Below, in pieces: positions 2,122-47,239 of a DNA stretch of 47,239 nucleotides. The stretch lies in assembly GCA_016218305.1 (NCBI GenBank), contig JACREJ010000069.1, positions 1 to 47,239 on the forward strand, in the 5' to 3' direction. This DNA comes from Gemmatimonadota bacterium. Its GTDB lineage: Bacteria > Gemmatimonadota > Gemmatimonadetes > Gemmatimonadales > Gemmatimonadaceae. Positions within the stretch are counted from its first letter, which is position 1, and the number at the start of each line of letters is the position of its first letter. Both the position numbers and the translations under genes were made by a program. A model generated the notes under the pieces. The model worked only from the letters and a program-made list of their open reading frames with translations, made no database searches and was not told the origin of the DNA.

Positions 2122-3951
2122 TCAGGCGCTGGTCTCGCGAAGCACTTGTTCGAGCGGCACGACGCCCTTCAGGACCTTGAGCCAGCCGTCCATGCGGAGC
2201 GTGAGCATGCCGTCCTCGATGCCGCCTTCCCTGATCTCGGCGGCGCCGACGTTCTGCAGAATCAGGCGCCGCAGGCGCGGCGTCATGAACATCACCTCGT
2301 ACAGGCCCTGGCGTCCCTTCATGCCATTGCCGCCGCACTGGTCGCACCCACGCCCGCGCCAGCACGGCACGGACGCGATCTTCGTATCGAGCGTCAGGTC
2401 CTTGACGAAGGGCGCCGCGTCCTTGGAGGCGTTCTTCACCGCGTCGCGGAGCGCCTCCTCGGTGAAGCGCAGGTCGCGGTACGTCGTGTCCCGCGTGATC
2501 TTCGCCGTCTGCATCTCCTCGTCGCTCATGATGTAGTGCTCCTTGCACCCGCCACAGACGCGCCGCACGAGGCGCTGGGCGAGCACGAGGTTGAGCGCCG
2601 AGCTGACATTGAACGGCTCGAGGCCCATGTCCAGCAGTCGGGTCACCGTCTCCGGCGCTGAGTTGGTGTGCAGCGTCGAGAGCACGAGGTGGCCGGTGAG
2701 CGCCGCCTTGATGGCGATGCCGCCCGTTTCCAGGTCGCGGATCTCGCCCACCATGATGATGTTCGGGTCCTGCCGCAGGAACGCCTTCAGCGCCGCGGCA
2801 AAGGTCATCCCGATCTCGTTGCGCACGAGCACCTGGTTGATGCCGAAGATGTTGTACTCCACCGGGTCTTCGGCCGTCATGATGTTCGTGTCGATGCTGT
2901 TCACCTTCGACAGCGCCGAGTACAGCGTGGTCGTCTTGCCCGAGCCCGTGGGGCCCGTCACGAGCACCATGCCGTACGGGTTGCTCACCGCTTCCATGAG
3001 CTCGCGTTCGGCGCGCGGCTCGATGCCGAACTTCTCGAGGTCGAGCGTCAGGTTGCCCTTGTCGAGGATGCGGAGCACCACCTTCTCGCCGAAGATCGTG
3101 GGCAGCGTCGACACACGGTAGTCGATGACCTTCTTGCCCATCTTCAGCTTGATGCGCCCGTCCTGCGGCACGCGGCGTTCGGCGATGTTGAGCGCCGACA
3201 TGATCTTGAAGCGGGAGATCAGCGCCGCCTGCATCTTCTTGGGCGGCTTCATGATCTCCTGCAGCGCGCCGTCGATGCGGTAGCGCACCCGCAGCTCGTG
3301 CTCGAAGCACTCGAAGTGGATGTCCGAGGCGCCGCGATTGACCGCGTCGGTGAGGATGGCGTTGAGCAGCTTCACCACCGGCGCGTCGTCGACCAGTTGG
3401 GCCTGCCCGGCCGCCGCCTCCTCGTCCGCCGTGTCCACCACCTCGACGTCGGCCTCGGCATCCAGCCCCTCGATCTCGTTGAGGAGCGCTCCCATCTGGA
3501 CGTCGGTCGACTCGTAGTGCTTCTCGATCGCGTTCTTGAGCGTGAACTCGCCGGCGATGACCGGGAAGATGTCGTAGCGCGTGATGAACTTGAGGTCGTC
3601 CACGACCCCCATGTTCGTGGGATCGGCCATCGCCACCGTGAGCGTGCGGCCATCGCGCTTGAGCGGCAGGACGAGGTGCTTCACCGCCACGTCGGCGGGG
3701 ACGAGCTTCACGATCTTGGGGTCGACCTCGAACTTCGACAGGTCCACGGCCGGCATCTTGAACTGCCGCGCCAGCACCTTGGTGATCTCGAGTTCGGGGA
3801 CGAAGCCGAGCTTGACGAGGTTGTAGCCCACCCGCGTGCCATTCTGCTTCTGCTCGGCGAGCGCCTTCTCCAATTGCTCCTTCGTGATGAGCCCCTCGCG
3901 GAGGAGGAGGTCACCGAGGCGTTCGGAACCGGAGGAGGCGGGATTGGCCAT
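2122..3951 (-). CDS. pilB: Type IV pilus extension ATPase PilB
   Basis: Cytoplasmic ATPase that drives pilus polymerisation. The 609-residue protein has an N-terminal T2SSE/MshEN domain (LGDLLLREGLITKEQLEKAL, then the MPAVDL region; MshEN domains often bind c-di-GMP), an acidic linker (about residues 165-185), and the ATPase core with Walker A GPTGSGKTT, Asp box (TAEDPVEY), Walker B (IIMVGEIRDLETG) and His box (STLHTNSAPE). Paired cysteines (VCGGC, CDQCGG) form the tetracysteine zinc site of PilB/GspE. An insertion of about 45 residues lies between the two cysteine pairs (roughly residues 480-525). It is the first gene of pilB-pilT-pilC. A run of GGGAGAY heptads lies just upstream at 3969-3998. 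Confidence 0.96.
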   Translation of the reverse strand: MANPASSGSERLGDLLLREGLITKEQLEKALAEQKQNGTRVGYNLVKLGFVPELEITKVLARQFKMPAVDLSKFEVDPKIVKLVPADVAVKHLVLPLKRDGRTLTVAMADPTNMGVVDDLKFITRYDIFPVIAGEFTLKNAIEKHYESTDVQMGALLNEIEGLDAEADVEVVDTADEEAAAGQAQLVDDAPVVKLLNAILTDAVNRGASDIHFECFEHELRVRYRIDGALQEIMKPPKKMQAALISRFKIMSALNIAERRVPQDGRIKLKMGKKVIDYRVSTLPTIFGEKVVLRILDKGNLTLDLEKFGIEPRAERELMEAVSNPYGMVLVTGPTGSGKTTTLYSALSKVNSIDTNIMTAEDPVEYNIFGINQVLVRNEIGMTFAAALKAFLRQDPNIIMVGEIRDLETGGIAIKAALTGHLVLSTLHTNSAPETVTRLLDMGLEPFNVSSALNLVLAQRLVRRVCGGCKEHYIMSDEEMQTAKITRDTTYRDLRFTEEALRDAVKNASKDAAPFVKDLTLDTKIASVPCWRGRGCDQCGGNGMKGRQGLYEVMFMTPRLRRLILQNVGAAEIREGGIEDGMLTLRMDGWLKVLKGVVPLEQVLRETSA

Positions 3952-3962
3952 GTAACGGCAGT

Positions 3963-4000
3963 CGGGAGACGGGAGATGGGTGACGGGAGACCATCACGGA
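3963..4000. repeat. GGGAGAY heptad repeat upstream of pilB
   Basis: About four tandem heptads (GGGAGAC, GGGAGAT, GGGTGAC, GGGAGAC) lie in the 116-nt spacer between pilB and the helix-hairpin-helix gene. The same heptad occurs inside the neighbouring coding sequence at about 4328-4363 and in the inverted pair at 36439-36572. No opposing arm is visible here, so it is a solo arm. Confidence 0.75.
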
Positions 4001-4067: not shown

Positions 4068-4631
4068 TCAAGGCGCTGCGGGGCGCCGACGGCCCTTGTC
4101 CTTGCGGGTCGGGGCATCCGCTCTGGCAACCCCGGAAAAGGTCACGCGGTCGCGGAGGGCCTTGGCCATCGCCGCGCCCACCCCCTTGACGCGTTGCAGC
4201 CCGTCCAGTGAACCAAAGGCCCCGAACGAGTCACGGTTGGCCACAATGCGGGCGGCGAGGGCGGGGCCGATCCGGGGAAGGGACTCGATGGAGGCAGTGG
4301 GGGCGAGGTCGAGGTCGATGAGGCTGATGGGAGATGGAAGACGGGAGATGGGAGAAGACAGCGCCGCGGCCGGCGGTGCGGCGGACTCAGGATTTCGCTT
4401 TCGGGCCGCTTTGTCCGCGTTGCGTTTGCGCAGGGCGGCGCGCCCGGCCTCGCGGCTGGGGGAATGCGCGACCGCGGAGTCCACGCGGGCGATCTGCGCC
4501 GCCAGGTCGCTCGGCGAGCCCTGCACGAGACGCTCGCCGCCGCGTGCGGCGCGCCAGGCATTGACGCCCACGCCGAGTGCGGCAACGGCGGCGAAGAAGA
4601 GCAGCGCCTGACGTTCGGCGGGCGTGGGCAT
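4068..4631 (-). CDS. Membrane-anchored helix-hairpin-helix protein (ComEA-like)
   Basis: Likely a DNA-binding envelope protein, perhaps for DNA uptake through the adjacent type IV pilus. The ATG at 4631 (GGAAG eight bases upstream) opens a hydrophobic segment (LLFFAAVAALGVGVNAW, about residues 10-26). A charged low-complexity linker of about 70 residues follows, then two helix-hairpin-helix motifs near the C-terminus (IESLPRIGPALAARIVANR and LQRVKGVGAAMAKALRDR), as in ComEA. The tail is basic (RKDKGRRRPAAP). An alternative ATG at 4658 adds nine residues. Residues SPISRLPSPIS just before the HhH domain are encoded by GGGAGAT heptads, the same repeat found between genes, so the repeat appears to have entered this reading frame. 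The competence role is inferred from domain and neighbours. Confidence 0.8.
   Translation of the reverse strand: MPTPAERQALLFFAAVAALGVGVNAWRAARGGERLVQGSPSDLAAQIARVDSAVAHSPSREAGRAALRKRNADKAARKRNPESAAPPAAALSSPISRLPSPISLIDLDLAPTASIESLPRIGPALAARIVANRDSFGAFGSLDGLQRVKGVGAAMAKALRDRVTFSGVARADAPTRKDKGRRRPAAP
4328..4363. repeat. GGGAGAT heptad array inside a coding sequence
   Basis: About five degenerate heptads (GGGAGAT, GGAAGAC, GGGAGAT, GGGAGAA) lie inside the ComEA-like gene and are translated in frame as a Ser/Pro/Ile-rich linker. Three heptads make 21 nt, or seven codons, so expansion by multiples of three units keeps the frame. Confidence 0.7.
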
Positions 4632-12261: not shown

Positions 12262-12382
12262 GACGGTAGATGGTGGATGGTAGAGGGTAGATGCTATCGT
12301 ACGACCGTCGTTCCACTTCGCTCCGAGATTCGCCCCGCGCGGCGAACCGTCATCTACCGTCCACTATCCACCTTCTACCTTC
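12262..12382. repeat. Inverted pair of GGTRGAT heptad arms, sprA-lptF spacer
   Basis: The left arm (12262-12293, GGTAGAT, GGTGGAT, GGTAGAG, GGTAGAT) and the right arm (12351-12382) are inverted copies matching at about 27 of 32 positions. They flank a GC-rich spacer of 57 nt. The pair sits in the divergent sprA/lptF spacer (12224-12520), where promoters for both genes must lie. No convincing -35/-10 pair could be fixed; TATACG near 12447 is a weak candidate for lptF. Confidence 0.8.
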
Positions 12383-15250: not shown

Positions 15251-15297
15251 AGAGAAACAACAGAGAGACAACAGAGAGACAACAGAGAAACAACAGA
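15251..15297. repeat. Left arm of inverted-repeat element (11-mer ACAACAGAGAG)
   Basis: Four tandem copies of an 11-base unit (ACAACAGAG plus AG or AA). The arm is complementary to 15789-15835 at 44 of 47 positions. The arm begins two bases after the lptG stop. Confidence 0.92.
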
Positions 15298-15378
15298 GTT
15301 ACGACATCTGCGATTAGTCGGTTGGGTTGGCATTCATCTGGTGACGCACGGGGGCCTCGCGGGGCTTACCGTGCGTTC

Positions 15379-15753
15379 ATGCATCAATACGAGCAGTTGA
15401 CCGTCTGGCAGCGGTCAATGGCGCTGGCTGCCGCGTTGCAGGGCGAGGCACGCGCGGCGCGTCACTACATCGACCGCACGGCGTGGAGCCAGATCATGCG
15501 CGCCGCCAGCAGCGTGCCGGCCAACATCGCGGAGGGAGCCATGCGGTCGAGCCCGCGCGACTTCGCGAACTTCCTCTCGATCGCCATCGGCTCGGCCGCC
15601 GAACTGCACGCCCTCCTGCAGATCGCCGCCGATAGCGGCCTTATCGCCGTCGACCGCGCCAGCAACGCCTCCCACGAGGCCAAGGAGCTCCGCCAGTTGC
15701 TCGTTAGCCTGCGCGGACGCATCCTCGGCCGGAAAAGGCAACACAGCCCGTAG
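15379..15753 (+). CDS. Four-helix-bundle protein (S23/IVS-encoded protein family)
   Basis: Small all-helical protein of the TIGR02436 type, first known from open frames in 23S rRNA intervening sequences and related to the Avd accessory proteins of diversity-generating retroelements. The 124 residues from ATG 15379 show the family words LTVWQRSMALAAAL, WSQIMRAASSVPANIAEGA, DFANFLSIAIGSAAELHALL and EAKELRQLLVSLRGRI. A TTG at 15322 would add 19 residues without family similarity. The gene is enclosed by 47-nt inverted arms (15251-15297 and 15789-15835) and ends shortly before a GC-rich hairpin. Biochemical function of the family is unsettled; RNA binding or scaffolding has been proposed. No reverse transcriptase or rRNA is seen nearby. 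Confidence 0.88.
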   Translation: MHQYEQLTVWQRSMALAAALQGEARAARHYIDRTAWSQIMRAASSVPANIAEGAMRSSPRDFANFLSIAIGSAAELHALLQIAADSGLIAVDRASNASHEAKELRQLLVSLRGRILGRKRQHSP

Positions 15754-15761
15754 AAAGCAGA

Positions 15762-15789
15762 ACCCCGGGAGCCTCTCGGCCCCCGGGGT
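15762..15789 (+). terminator. GC-rich hairpin after the four-helix-bundle gene
   Basis: Stem ACCCCGGGAGCC (15762-15773), loop TCTC, stem GGCCCCCGGGGT (15778-15789), with 11 of 12 pairs, followed directly by the T-rich right arm (CTGTTGTCTCTC). It could terminate transcription or be the inner stem of the larger element. Confidence 0.65.
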
Positions 15790-15835
15790 CTGTTGTCTCT
15801 CTGTTGTCTCTCTGTTGTCTATCTGTTGTCTCTCT
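15789..15835. repeat. Right arm of inverted-repeat element (11-mer)
   Basis: Inverted copy of 15251-15297 with three mismatches in 47. It ends where the stop codon of the TonB-dependent receptor begins (15835), so it also forms the 3' boundary of that gene. Confidence 0.92.
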
Positions 15836-27446: not shown

Positions 27447-27577
27447 ACTGGGGATTGGGAGCTCGGATGAGGGTTTGCGATGTTGATTGGCGATCGGGAT
27501 CGCGATACTCATTCGGCGCGGCAATCACCATCCGAATCGCAAATCCGAATCGCTCATCCCAATCCGAGCTCCTTATC
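27447..27577. repeat. Inverted-repeat element, GATT/CGGAT type (copy A)
   Basis: The left part (GATTGGGAGCTCGGATGAGG near 27451, then TTTGCGAT) and the right part (ATCGCAAATCCGAATCGCTC, then CCAATCCGAGCTCC, to about 27572) are inverted copies with small gaps, centred near 27515. The words gattggg, agctcggat and gattcggat recur at 28205-28320, 28888-28981 and 33653-33740. It ends about 20 nt before the GTG of the next gene. Confidence 0.8.
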
Positions 27578-27593
27578 CTTATTCGTCTCTTCT

Positions 27594-28865: not shown

Positions 28866-28887
28866 GGGAAAGGCCGATTGGGGATTG

Positions 28888-28981
28888 GGAGCTCGGATTC
28901 AGATTAAGGATACTGATTGGCGATGGGGATATCGATATCCCGATCGTCAATCCGAATCGCGAATCCCCATCCGAGCTCCCT
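28888..28981. repeat. Inverted-repeat element, GATT/CGGAT type (copy B, loopless palindrome)
   Basis: Arms of 47 nt (28888-28934 and 28935-28981) meet without a loop at GATATC/GATATC. They match at 37 of 47 positions, with identical ends (GGGAGCTCGGAT) and centre (GGGATATC). It fills the spacer between the gamma-glutamyltransferase stop and the ppa start, both on the minus strand. Confidence 0.88.
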
Positions 28982-31187: not shown

Positions 31188-31687
31188 GAAATCCTCCTCG
31201 CTGCGTCCGACCGTTGTTATCCGCATTGGTGCTCCGGTTGCTTCGAGTGGCCCTGTCGGCCGTCGCTCACCTTCGGCAGCCGGACAATCTCGGTGACCAG
31301 AGATTCCCTGCGTTGCGGCCCCGCCTCGCGACGGGTGTGCTTGTGTCGGGTGATGCAGCATTCAGTTGTTGCCCCGTAATACAGCGAAAAGCGTGCCAAA
31401 CCATGCGACGCGCTAATGCGTTGCTATATCATGCGTTATACGACCATCACATCGTGACGTGGGCATTACTCCTCGCTTCTCGCGGTCTGCTCGGCAACGC
31501 GCGCGACGCCGTAAACTTCGGTTATAGTCACGTTGTCGGAGTGAAGCGTCACATCGTGCGCGACGCCCGGCGGAACCGGCTTGGCACGTTGCTGACCAGC
31601 GGCGGCGCGACTATCCTCTGTCGCAATCATTGAGCGTCGTTGCCGGTCCCAGGTCGGCAGCGTCCTTCGCCCCAGCCCCGCCCCTCC
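31188..31687. promoter_or_regulatory. 500-nt non-coding region between the STAS gene and acs
   Basis: No supported gene. An open frame at 31214-31633 lacks a Shine-Dalgarno sequence and has an unprotein-like composition. The region includes an AT-richer patch at about 31370-31450 with ATGCG at 31403, 31416 and 31431, the last two as ATGCGTT separated by 15 nt. It also has two copies of TCACATCGTG (about 31446 and 31549). Both divergent genes must have promoters here; hexamers such as TTATAC (31435-31440) are possible -10 boxes but no clear pair could be fixed. The ATGCGTT pair could be an operator. Confidence 0.45.
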
Positions 31688-36380: not shown

Positions 36381-36438
36381 AGGGAAACCGTTGGGTGAGA
36401 GACAGTAGGAAGTTACAGGAGGTAGGGAGCGGGAAACA

Positions 36439-36572
36439 GATGGGAGATGGGAGATGGGAGATGGGAGGCAGCCGGCGGCCGGCGGAACACCGGTCGGTGC
36501 TGCAAGGGTACACCGCGAACCGTAGCTTTGATCGTACGCATCTCCCATCTCCCATCCCCCATCTCCCATCCG
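36439..36572. repeat. Inverted pair of GGGAGAT heptad arms
   Basis: The left arm (36439-36468, four GGGAGAT units) and right arm (36539-36572) are inverted copies with one or two mismatches. Between them lies a GC-rich imperfect hairpin (CAGCCGGCGG with CCGGTCGGTGCTG, about 36469-36503). The pair fills the divergent spacer between the DsbA-like gene and the alpha/beta hydrolase and ends about five bases before the TTG start of the latter. Confidence 0.88.
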
Positions 36573-39507: not shown

Positions 39508-39597
39508 AGAGAGACAACAGAGAGACAACAGAGAAACAACAGAGGGCGGGCTTGCGGGCTCGCCCTTCTGGCGTTGGGCCCGGCAGTCTGTTGTCGT
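39508..39597. repeat. 11-mer ACAACAGAGAG element, short form
   Basis: The left arm (39508-39543) contains three units of the same 11-mer as 15251-15297. A GC hairpin follows (39543-39566, AGGGCG with CGCCCT), then a second GC stretch and one inverted half-unit (TCTGTTGTCG, about 39587-39596). Both this copy and the 15251-15835 element place GTCTGTTGTC directly after a GC-rich stretch. It may serve as terminator for the cyclic-nucleotide-binding gene. Confidence 0.75.
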
Positions 39598-47178: not shown

Positions 47179-47201
47179 GCCGCAACCATACCACGGGGAG
47201 C

Positions 47202-47239
47202 AGAGAAACAACAGAGAGACAACAGAGAGACAACAGAGA
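47202..47239. repeat. 11-mer ACAACAGAGAG repeat arm, cut by window end
   Basis: Three units of the same 11-base repeat as at 15251 and 39508, running off the window. It probably belongs to another inverted-repeat element upstream of psuG. Confidence 0.8.

Follow-up and report, generated by a model that had tools for sequence, protein, structure and literature searches.

Results

An S23 gene enclosed by tandem arrays

The window, by which we mean the whole stretch of DNA analysed, is the entire contig C19 (47,239 nt) of a 2.0-Mb draft genome in 116 contigs. At the locus of interest, two convergent genes, lptG (PF03739) and a gene for an oar-like TonB receptor, bound a single S23 gene, whose product matches PF05635 with 88.1 bits (curated cut-off 33.8; E = 5.4e-25) and TIGR02436 with 93.2 bits (curated cut-off 24; E = 1.1e-26). 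The gene lies between two inverted arms (15251-15297 and 15789-15835) of 47 nt each, spaced 491 nt apart and 94% complementary. A first-pass annotation of this DNA had described the pairing at 44 of 47 positions, the one S23/TIGR02436-type gene and GC stem inside the arms, and the location of the whole between two protein genes, and all of this was confirmed (Table 1). The arms are not the unique stem that had been supposed, because each is a tandem array of an 11-mer, AGAGARACAAC, that recurs genome-wide; we therefore reject the idea of unique 47-nt arms. The element bears terminal inverted repeats, as MITEs and classical transposons do, and a 594-nt transcript of the locus is predicted to fold with the arms closing it (z -10.2). 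Hairpin-like sequence was seen by eye at the equivalent spacer position in three congeners (G001, G006 and G007). An Rfam scan found no rRNA in the window, and the S23 locus does not lie within a 16S or 23S rRNA gene.

Table 1. Positions of the S23 locus and of the gene-less arrays in the window.
Feature	Position	Strand	Remark
Left array, 4.4 copies of AGAGARACAAC	15251..15298	+	Begins 1 nt past the lptG stop (distance +1)
Spacer 5' of the S23 gene	15299..15378	+	Foldable hairpin, its end near the start codon
S23 / PF05635 / TIGR02436 four-helix-bundle gene, 124 aa	15379..15753	+	Sole ORF between the arms
GC-rich stem-loop	15761..15790		Terminator-like by consensus scan
Right array, inverted, 4.3 copies of AGAGARACAAC	15789..15835	-	Touches the stop of the oar-like receptor gene (distance -1)
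Single heptamer array, C101 S23 type	3951..3991	+	Arm-unit match
Single heptamer array, C101 S23 type	4322..4355	+	Arm-unit match
Gene-less inverted pair, type of the third S23 gene's arms (C87:2434)	27452..27585		Arm match
Second gene-less inverted pair, C87 type	28874..28979		Arm match
Gene-less inverted heptamer pair, GGGAGAT	36438..36570 (36438-36467, 36539-36570)		Unit is that of the arms of S23 gene C101:26353
Gene-less AGAGARACAAC array, 3.4 copies	39508..39546	+	Directly past the stop of a cNMP-binding-domain gene, then a GC stem
Single AGAGARACAAC array	47201..47239	+	Ended by the contig edge; tandem repeat and pattern match

Gene-less copies with the same arms had been noted at 39508 and 47202. 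Both do carry the same unit, but the right arm at 39508 amounts to only about one unit, and the other copy is a single array at the contig end. The window also contains gene-less pairs of two more S23 types of the source genome, those of the genes on C101 and C87. A heptamer array of GGTAGAT type lies at 12265-12293, close to where a long gene that matches SprA_N ends, and a c-di-GMP-I riboswitch aptamer lies at 31272-31351 on the minus strand (43.1 bits against a gathering threshold of 35).

Dispersed arrays past stop codons

A pattern of two AGAGARACAAC units gave 230 matches across the source draft (at most two mismatches), which excludes a chance inverted repeat; the unit is dispersed genome-wide. 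The reversed pattern (194 matches) is unusable as a control because the array resembles itself read backwards. We surveyed arrays in the window and in 35 array-centred stretches, picked among the exact matches listed, with four more stretches around other S23 genes. Genes were called by a codon score trained on those of the window, which makes the gene calls approximate for other genomes. Arrays of three or more units in the window and the 35 stretches number 61; of these, 41 have a coding stop in the sense direction at -10 to +40 nt and three in antisense; at -6 to +10 nt the numbers are 39 and one. Arrays of the source genome mostly lie in sense orientation, directly past stop codons and beside terminator-like stems. 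One 11-mer array (1938-1987 of stretch L047) seems by eye to lie between two tRNA-like sequences rather than past a protein gene; the match to this stretch in congeners reflects tRNA paralogy and not an orthologous junction, and was discarded.

Inverted pairs with at least three units in both arms number 17, against the 61 such arrays overall; they enclose GC stems that vary by locus, where the window locus holds a gene instead. The three gene-less pairs tested (L054, L070 and L069) fold to long, very stable hairpins (for L054, -112 kcal/mol and z -17.5). Arms of one locus are no more similar to each other than arms of different loci (0.906 and 0.911; 17 pairs, permutation p 0.87), and each array therefore follows the genome-wide consensus and not its partner. 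Given also the many arrays that lack a good second arm, the data do not point to selection on a conserved RNase III stem, and we accordingly reject stem pairing as the selected trait.

The same places in congeners

Among 60 genomes, only members of the genus carry the 11-mer pattern: it was found in 9 of the 11 genus genomes and in none of the 49 other relatives. Two of the nine have just 5-6 matches, and the unit is abundant in 7 of the 11. Presence or absence at orthologous lptG junctions had been suggested as a check. At the lptG/oar junction, seven of the 11 genus genomes have the S23 gene with arrays on both sides, and three (G004, G008 and G009) have neither, with a plain GC stem alone; in the remaining one, G003, a different gene follows lptG, and an S23 gene with 8-mer arrays lies about 2 kb farther. 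Gene and arrays are thus jointly present or jointly absent at this junction. A stem resembling the terminator-like stem of the window was seen by eye at all seven filled sites; the oar-like receptor gene of G006 is more distantly related (38-44% identity). The array unit varies by species, both arms switching together: it is CAACAGAGARA in G000 (the source draft), G001, G006 and G007, GCAGAGARAAA in G002 and G005, and a 9/10-mer of ACGACAGA type in G010. In G009 the S23-A gene is located elsewhere, with a 10-mer.

Gene-less sites could be compared for those loci whose flanks lay in sampled DNA. The orthologue of the array at 39508 has the 11-mer in G001 and G005 and that genome's own 10-mer in G009, and its left array is absent in G008; a similar GC stem is found in every orthologue compared (G001, G005, G008 and G009). 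Gene-less sites L062 and L051 carry the 10-mer in G009, the array is missing at the L039 orthologue in G004 and at the L043 orthologue in G009, the L036 array is heptamer-like in G001, and the L048 array is conserved in G001. The comparison of L042 with G005 was weakly aligned and was left out of the firm cases. We conclude that array units have been replaced between species at orthologous places, and that the S23 gene has mostly been inherited in place within the genus. The earlier suggestion of a mobile or RNA-processed element is supported in part: junctions lacking gene and arrays exist in 3 of 11 genomes, but the gene is mostly inherited in place and the spacer differs at those sites, where no target-site duplication was seen by eye.

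Inverted arrays around S23 genes across the order

We then scored the flanks of S23 genes more widely. The set comprised every PF05635 match in the 11 genus genomes at E <= 1e-6 (54 in all) and, from other genera, 39 of the 52 matches listed. One locus at a contig edge was dropped, leaving 92, and a row with a stop inside the match (G028:C18) was kept with approximate ORF ends. Inverted flanks, defined by an inverted-alignment score of at least 35, were found at 70 of the 92 S23 loci, made up of 39 of 54 genus loci and 31 of 38 loci from other genera; the seven lptG/oar orthologues, one inherited case, enter this count seven times. The same score was reached by 4 of 632 control genes (2 of 170 short, 2 of 462 long), and the association of gene and arms is not chance. 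It was found at 66 of the 78 loci encoding proteins under 150 aa and at 4 of the 14 encoding longer ones; the 22 loci below the threshold comprise 10 that encode at least 150 aa and 12 that encode shorter proteins. Most S23 genes lie between inverted arrays of a short unit.

That unit follows the S23 lineage. Set against the S23 tree of the 70, the arm period changes label 28 times, whereas shuffling gave a mean of 42.6 and in none of 200 trials a number as low, labels being uncertain for weakly periodic arms and 23 of the 70 rows unlabelled. An 11-member clade has only units of 8-11 nt and a nine-member clade only 7 or 14, the others having mainly 13 or 24-25. GGG occurs in 50 of 67 arm stretches, and upstream arms are not purine-rich at 6 of 67 loci; a broad S23 alignment gave no searchable motif.

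Several loci differ in detail. L110 (G029) and L093 (G014) have near-identical inverted arms of about 136 and 78 nt with no simple tandem array, and are possibly younger insertions. The flanks of L090, L092 and other loci contain strong direct repeats as well (for example, 181 direct against 79 inverted), which suggests nested or duplicated arms. L141 and L142, on contigs C1 and C2 of G025, show identical tandem repeats at a constant offset in the two contigs, so that C1 is probably a duplicate of part of C2.

S23 type and dispersed unit

Within the DNA sampled, 24 of 50 S23 arms had a copy in the same genome away from S23 genes; by comparison, a copy was found for 93 of 324 pairs from the same genus and for 3 of 526 pairs from different genera. 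Whole-genome counts of three units were examined in the 11 genus genomes. GCAGAGARAAA is found only in G002 (161 matches) and G005 (31), the two with an S23 gene of that unit. The 10-mer, whose search pattern lumps three related words, has 108, 93 and 34 matches in the genomes with such an S23 gene (G001, G010 and G009), 45 in G003, which lacks one, and at most four in the others. The 11-mer has 230, 275, 358 and 178 matches in those with its S23 type (G000, G001, G006 and G007), and 106, 247 and 221 in three without it (G002, G005 and G010). Pooled over the three units, at least ten matches were found in 9 of 9 cases where the genome has the S23 type and in 4 of 24 where it does not (p 2e-5), the ten-match threshold and the choice of units having been set after viewing the data and the counts including the arms of the S23 locus itself. 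The four mismatches, in which a unit is dispersed and no S23 gene of its type was found (the 11-mer in G002, G005 and G010, the 10-mer in G003), come from drafts that may miss the gene.

The broader scan, which reached into other phyla, took the best 80 loci among the matches listed, of which 78 were scorable, two of them from the source genus. A score of at least 35 was reached at 28 of these 78 best-listed loci (26 of 76 outside the genus) vs 3 of 307 mismatched pairs, and upstream period-7 arrays (z >= 4.5) were found at 45 of 70 tested best-listed loci vs 12 of 420 control windows, and downstream period-7 arrays at 26. In a Gammaproteobacteria sample, PF05635 occurs in 67 of 369 genomes; 30 loci among the matches listed gave a score of at least 35 in 15 cases, vs 3 of 234 mismatched pairs, and upstream period-7 arrays in 20. 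One row of this sample with a stop inside the match (G432) was kept with approximate ORF ends.

Three Mesorhizobium genomes with TAGGCAG arms at their S23 gene have 68, 25 and 26 TAGGCAG matches. Seven other genomes comprise five with none and two with 15-16, and the S23 locus known in each of those two bears another unit. Among 20 Mesorhizobium sites sampled, one is an S23 locus; 14 of the other 19 have oppositely directed arrays within about 250 nt of each other, too close for a gene, and several arrays begin, by eye, at stop codons. The tie of S23 genes to lineage-specific tandem arrays is well supported, as is that to dispersed gene-less arrays in the Gemmatimonadota genus and in Mesorhizobium. 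The recurrence in many bacteria of an S23 gene with its own repeat word, also scattered without the gene, suggests one overlooked protein-and-repeat system.

Protein fold and unit number

An AlphaFold model of the window S23 protein has four helices (mean pLDDT 91). Its closest PDB match is 2gsc (Xcc0516; TM 0.82, query-normalised, to 2gsc_B), followed by 2rld and then, weakly, by Avd of the Bordetella phage DGR (4dwl/8ub7, E 0.17). Avd is a pentamer, and the 2gsc and 2rld entries have five chains each. The S23p of X. campestris is described as a homopentameric toroid (PMC4990558). By analogy with these structures, S23 proteins probably form pentameric rings and are probably related to DGR Avd.

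Exactly four units are present in 52 of 65 11-mer arrays, counted from two units up. At a TRF score of at least 44, median copy numbers are 4.4 for 11-mers, 4.6 for 10-mers and 5.3 for 7-mers (quartiles 4.6-8.5), and array lengths are 48, 44 and 37 nt. At a score of at least 30 the medians are 4.4 for 11-mers and 4.6 for 7-mers, and 2.6, 2.2 and 2.8 for periods 8, 9 and 10, where two-copy matches dominate, many of which look like chance or coding repeats. These numbers suggest approximately one array unit per S23 subunit. G-tracts of at least three are absent from AGAGARACAAC and GGG is present in the GGGAGAT arrays of the window; since the GGG-free 11-mer still prefers four units, we reject G-quadruplexes as the general cause of that number.

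Neither reverse transcriptase (RVT_1) nor Y1 transposase (Y1_Tnp, RAYT) was found in the source draft; they were found in 1 and 2, respectively, of the 11 genus genomes, all drafts. One of the two Y1 matches (G010 C122:489-845, L282) contains one internal TAG. On these counts a DGR-type reverse transcriptase or RAYT was rejected as the mover in the genus.

Discussion

On balance, though by no means with assurance, we favour a protein-plus-repeat system in which S23 reads its own array, the window locus being the copy that bears the gene and the gene-less arrays being dispersed sites. Reading of the arrays by S23 is the likeliest cause of their association, and from that association we infer binding. 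S23 would form a pentameric ring that binds its own array, in the transcript or in DNA, with about one unit per subunit, which would explain why copy numbers cluster around 4-5 at unit lengths of 7, 10 and 11 nt. The ring model draws on the analogy of TRAP, a ring that binds tandem RNA triplets. Host processes (template switching, recombination or RNA-mediated copying) might spread and homogenise the arrays recognised by S23, and could do so with no help from the reverse transcriptase or RAYT families that were sought. The system would persist mostly as a selfish passenger beside terminators, and could serve to tune the 3' ends of mRNAs. The short-unit model is at odds with arm classes that have 24-25-nt units or no clear period, and its generality is weakened in that only a third to a half of loci outside the phylum reach the inverted score.

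The position of the arrays could also be read as that of a regulon, S23 being a host regulator that acts on termination or on mRNA 3' ends, the arrays its conserved sites, and the S23 gene autoregulated by them. Sense orientation past the stop codon, the conserved terminator-like cores that adjoin the arrays and the inheritance of S23 at lptG/oar in 7 of 11 genomes all accord with this, but both the dispersed units and the presence of arrays at orthologous genes vary among congeners. Such variation would be expected of fast turnover, not of a conserved regulon, and we regard this explanation as unlikely. We consider it decidedly unlikely that the locus is an RNA-level intervening sequence, whose arms pair into a duplex that RNase III cuts, harmless in the transcript and with S23 dispensable. 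The predicted closed fold of the locus transcript and the long hairpins of the three gene-less pairs speak for it, as do the tandem heptamers that start at the RNase III site in Coxiella (PMC4990558); many arrays are partnerless, however, same-locus arms are no better matched than others, and neither the tracking of units with S23 clades nor the unit shared with gene-less copies is explained.

That the repeats reflect slippage beside terminators or G-quadruplex retention, with an incidental link to S23, is very improbable and already disfavoured. Four-unit heptamers near stops have been explained by G-quadruplexes in Xanthomonas and Nostoc (PMC4692102), and most S23 arm stretches contain GGG, but the 11-mer keeps to four units without it, inverted flanks mark S23 genes far more often than controls, and dispersed units match S23 type. 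We give equally little credence to a hidden catalytic partner (a DGR-like reverse transcriptase, RAYT or other transposase) that moves the arrays with S23 as its accessory, as Avd is for the DGR reverse transcriptase. Avd has an S23-like fold (4dwl, 8ub7) and is essential for reverse-transcriptase-mediated retrohoming (PMC10053308), yet the RVT_1 and Y1_Tnp families are confined to one and two draft genomes while the 11-mer is abundant in seven of the 11, so that these two families are already disfavoured as partner.

The reading of the locus as part of a protein-plus-repeat system invites a broader proposal, which we offer tentatively and with rather more doubt than conviction: that S23 proteins may be ring-shaped, sequence-specific array readers, each paralogue with its own word and each subunit with one unit; that S23 genes and their arrays may form pan-bacterial elements which carry these words to the 3' ends of genes while encoding neither a transposase nor a reverse transcriptase; and that rRNA intervening sequences and unexplained heptamers may both be parts of them. 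S23, with solved structures and no known function, and the bacterial heptamers, abundant and also with no known function, have hitherto been puzzled over separately. Should they prove to be linked, each would help to explain the other, rRNA intervening sequences would gain a parent class, S23 function would become testable by binding with a predicted specificity, and a repeat-spreading system without an evident transposase would come into view.

Comparison with known systems

The S23 gene type was originally seen within rRNA genes. As in the 23S rRNA intervening sequences of Coxiella and Leptospira, the S23 ORF of the window lies between complementary ends, and the likeness drawn by the first-pass annotation is strengthened by Coxiella, where tandem GACAGAT heptamers begin at the RNase III site in the stem and extend up to the S23 ORF (PMC4990558). 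Unlike those sequences, the window locus is placed between protein genes and has 11-mer arrays of about four units, and its unit is dispersed without the gene.

The heptamers GGGAATC and GGGGA(C/T)T of Xanthomonas and Nostoc prefer four units and lie near stop codons, and those of Xanthomonas also occur as convergent pairs (PMC4692102; Rehm et al., 2015). Rehm et al. (2015) discuss G-quadruplexes, to which they ascribe the copy number of four, and still seek a function; S23 or a four-helix protein is absent from the main text of PMC4692102. The Xanthomonas heptamers thus have the same anatomy as S23 arrays, but without a known protein, whereas the repeat classes described here are associated with S23 genes and include an 11-mer that is not G-rich. 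The TAACTGA repeats of Beggiatoaceae are likewise dispersed, mostly intergenic heptamer arrays, of 2-6 copies, but unlike source-genome arrays they are mostly oriented towards start codons (PMC4679880); the main text of PMC4679880, too, has neither S23 nor a four-helix protein. In the portions of PMC4692102 and PMC4990558 consulted, neither links S23 to dispersed repeats, and among the matches listed from open-access PMC text (supplements and subscription papers apart) we found no paper that does so.

The resemblance to the DGR accessory protein Avd lies in the shared fold, a weaker match; unlike a DGR, the genus has no reverse transcriptase found in 10 of its 11 genomes, all drafts. In REP/REPIN-RAYT systems, one gene is flanked by repeats that also occur as many gene-less extragenic copies, and the S23 system shares this layout of a gene with flanking repeats and gene-less extragenic copies. 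It differs from them in that no Y1 transposase was found in 9 of 11 genus genomes, in that S23, unlike RAYT, is a helical bundle without a known catalytic site, and in that its repeats are tandem arrays.
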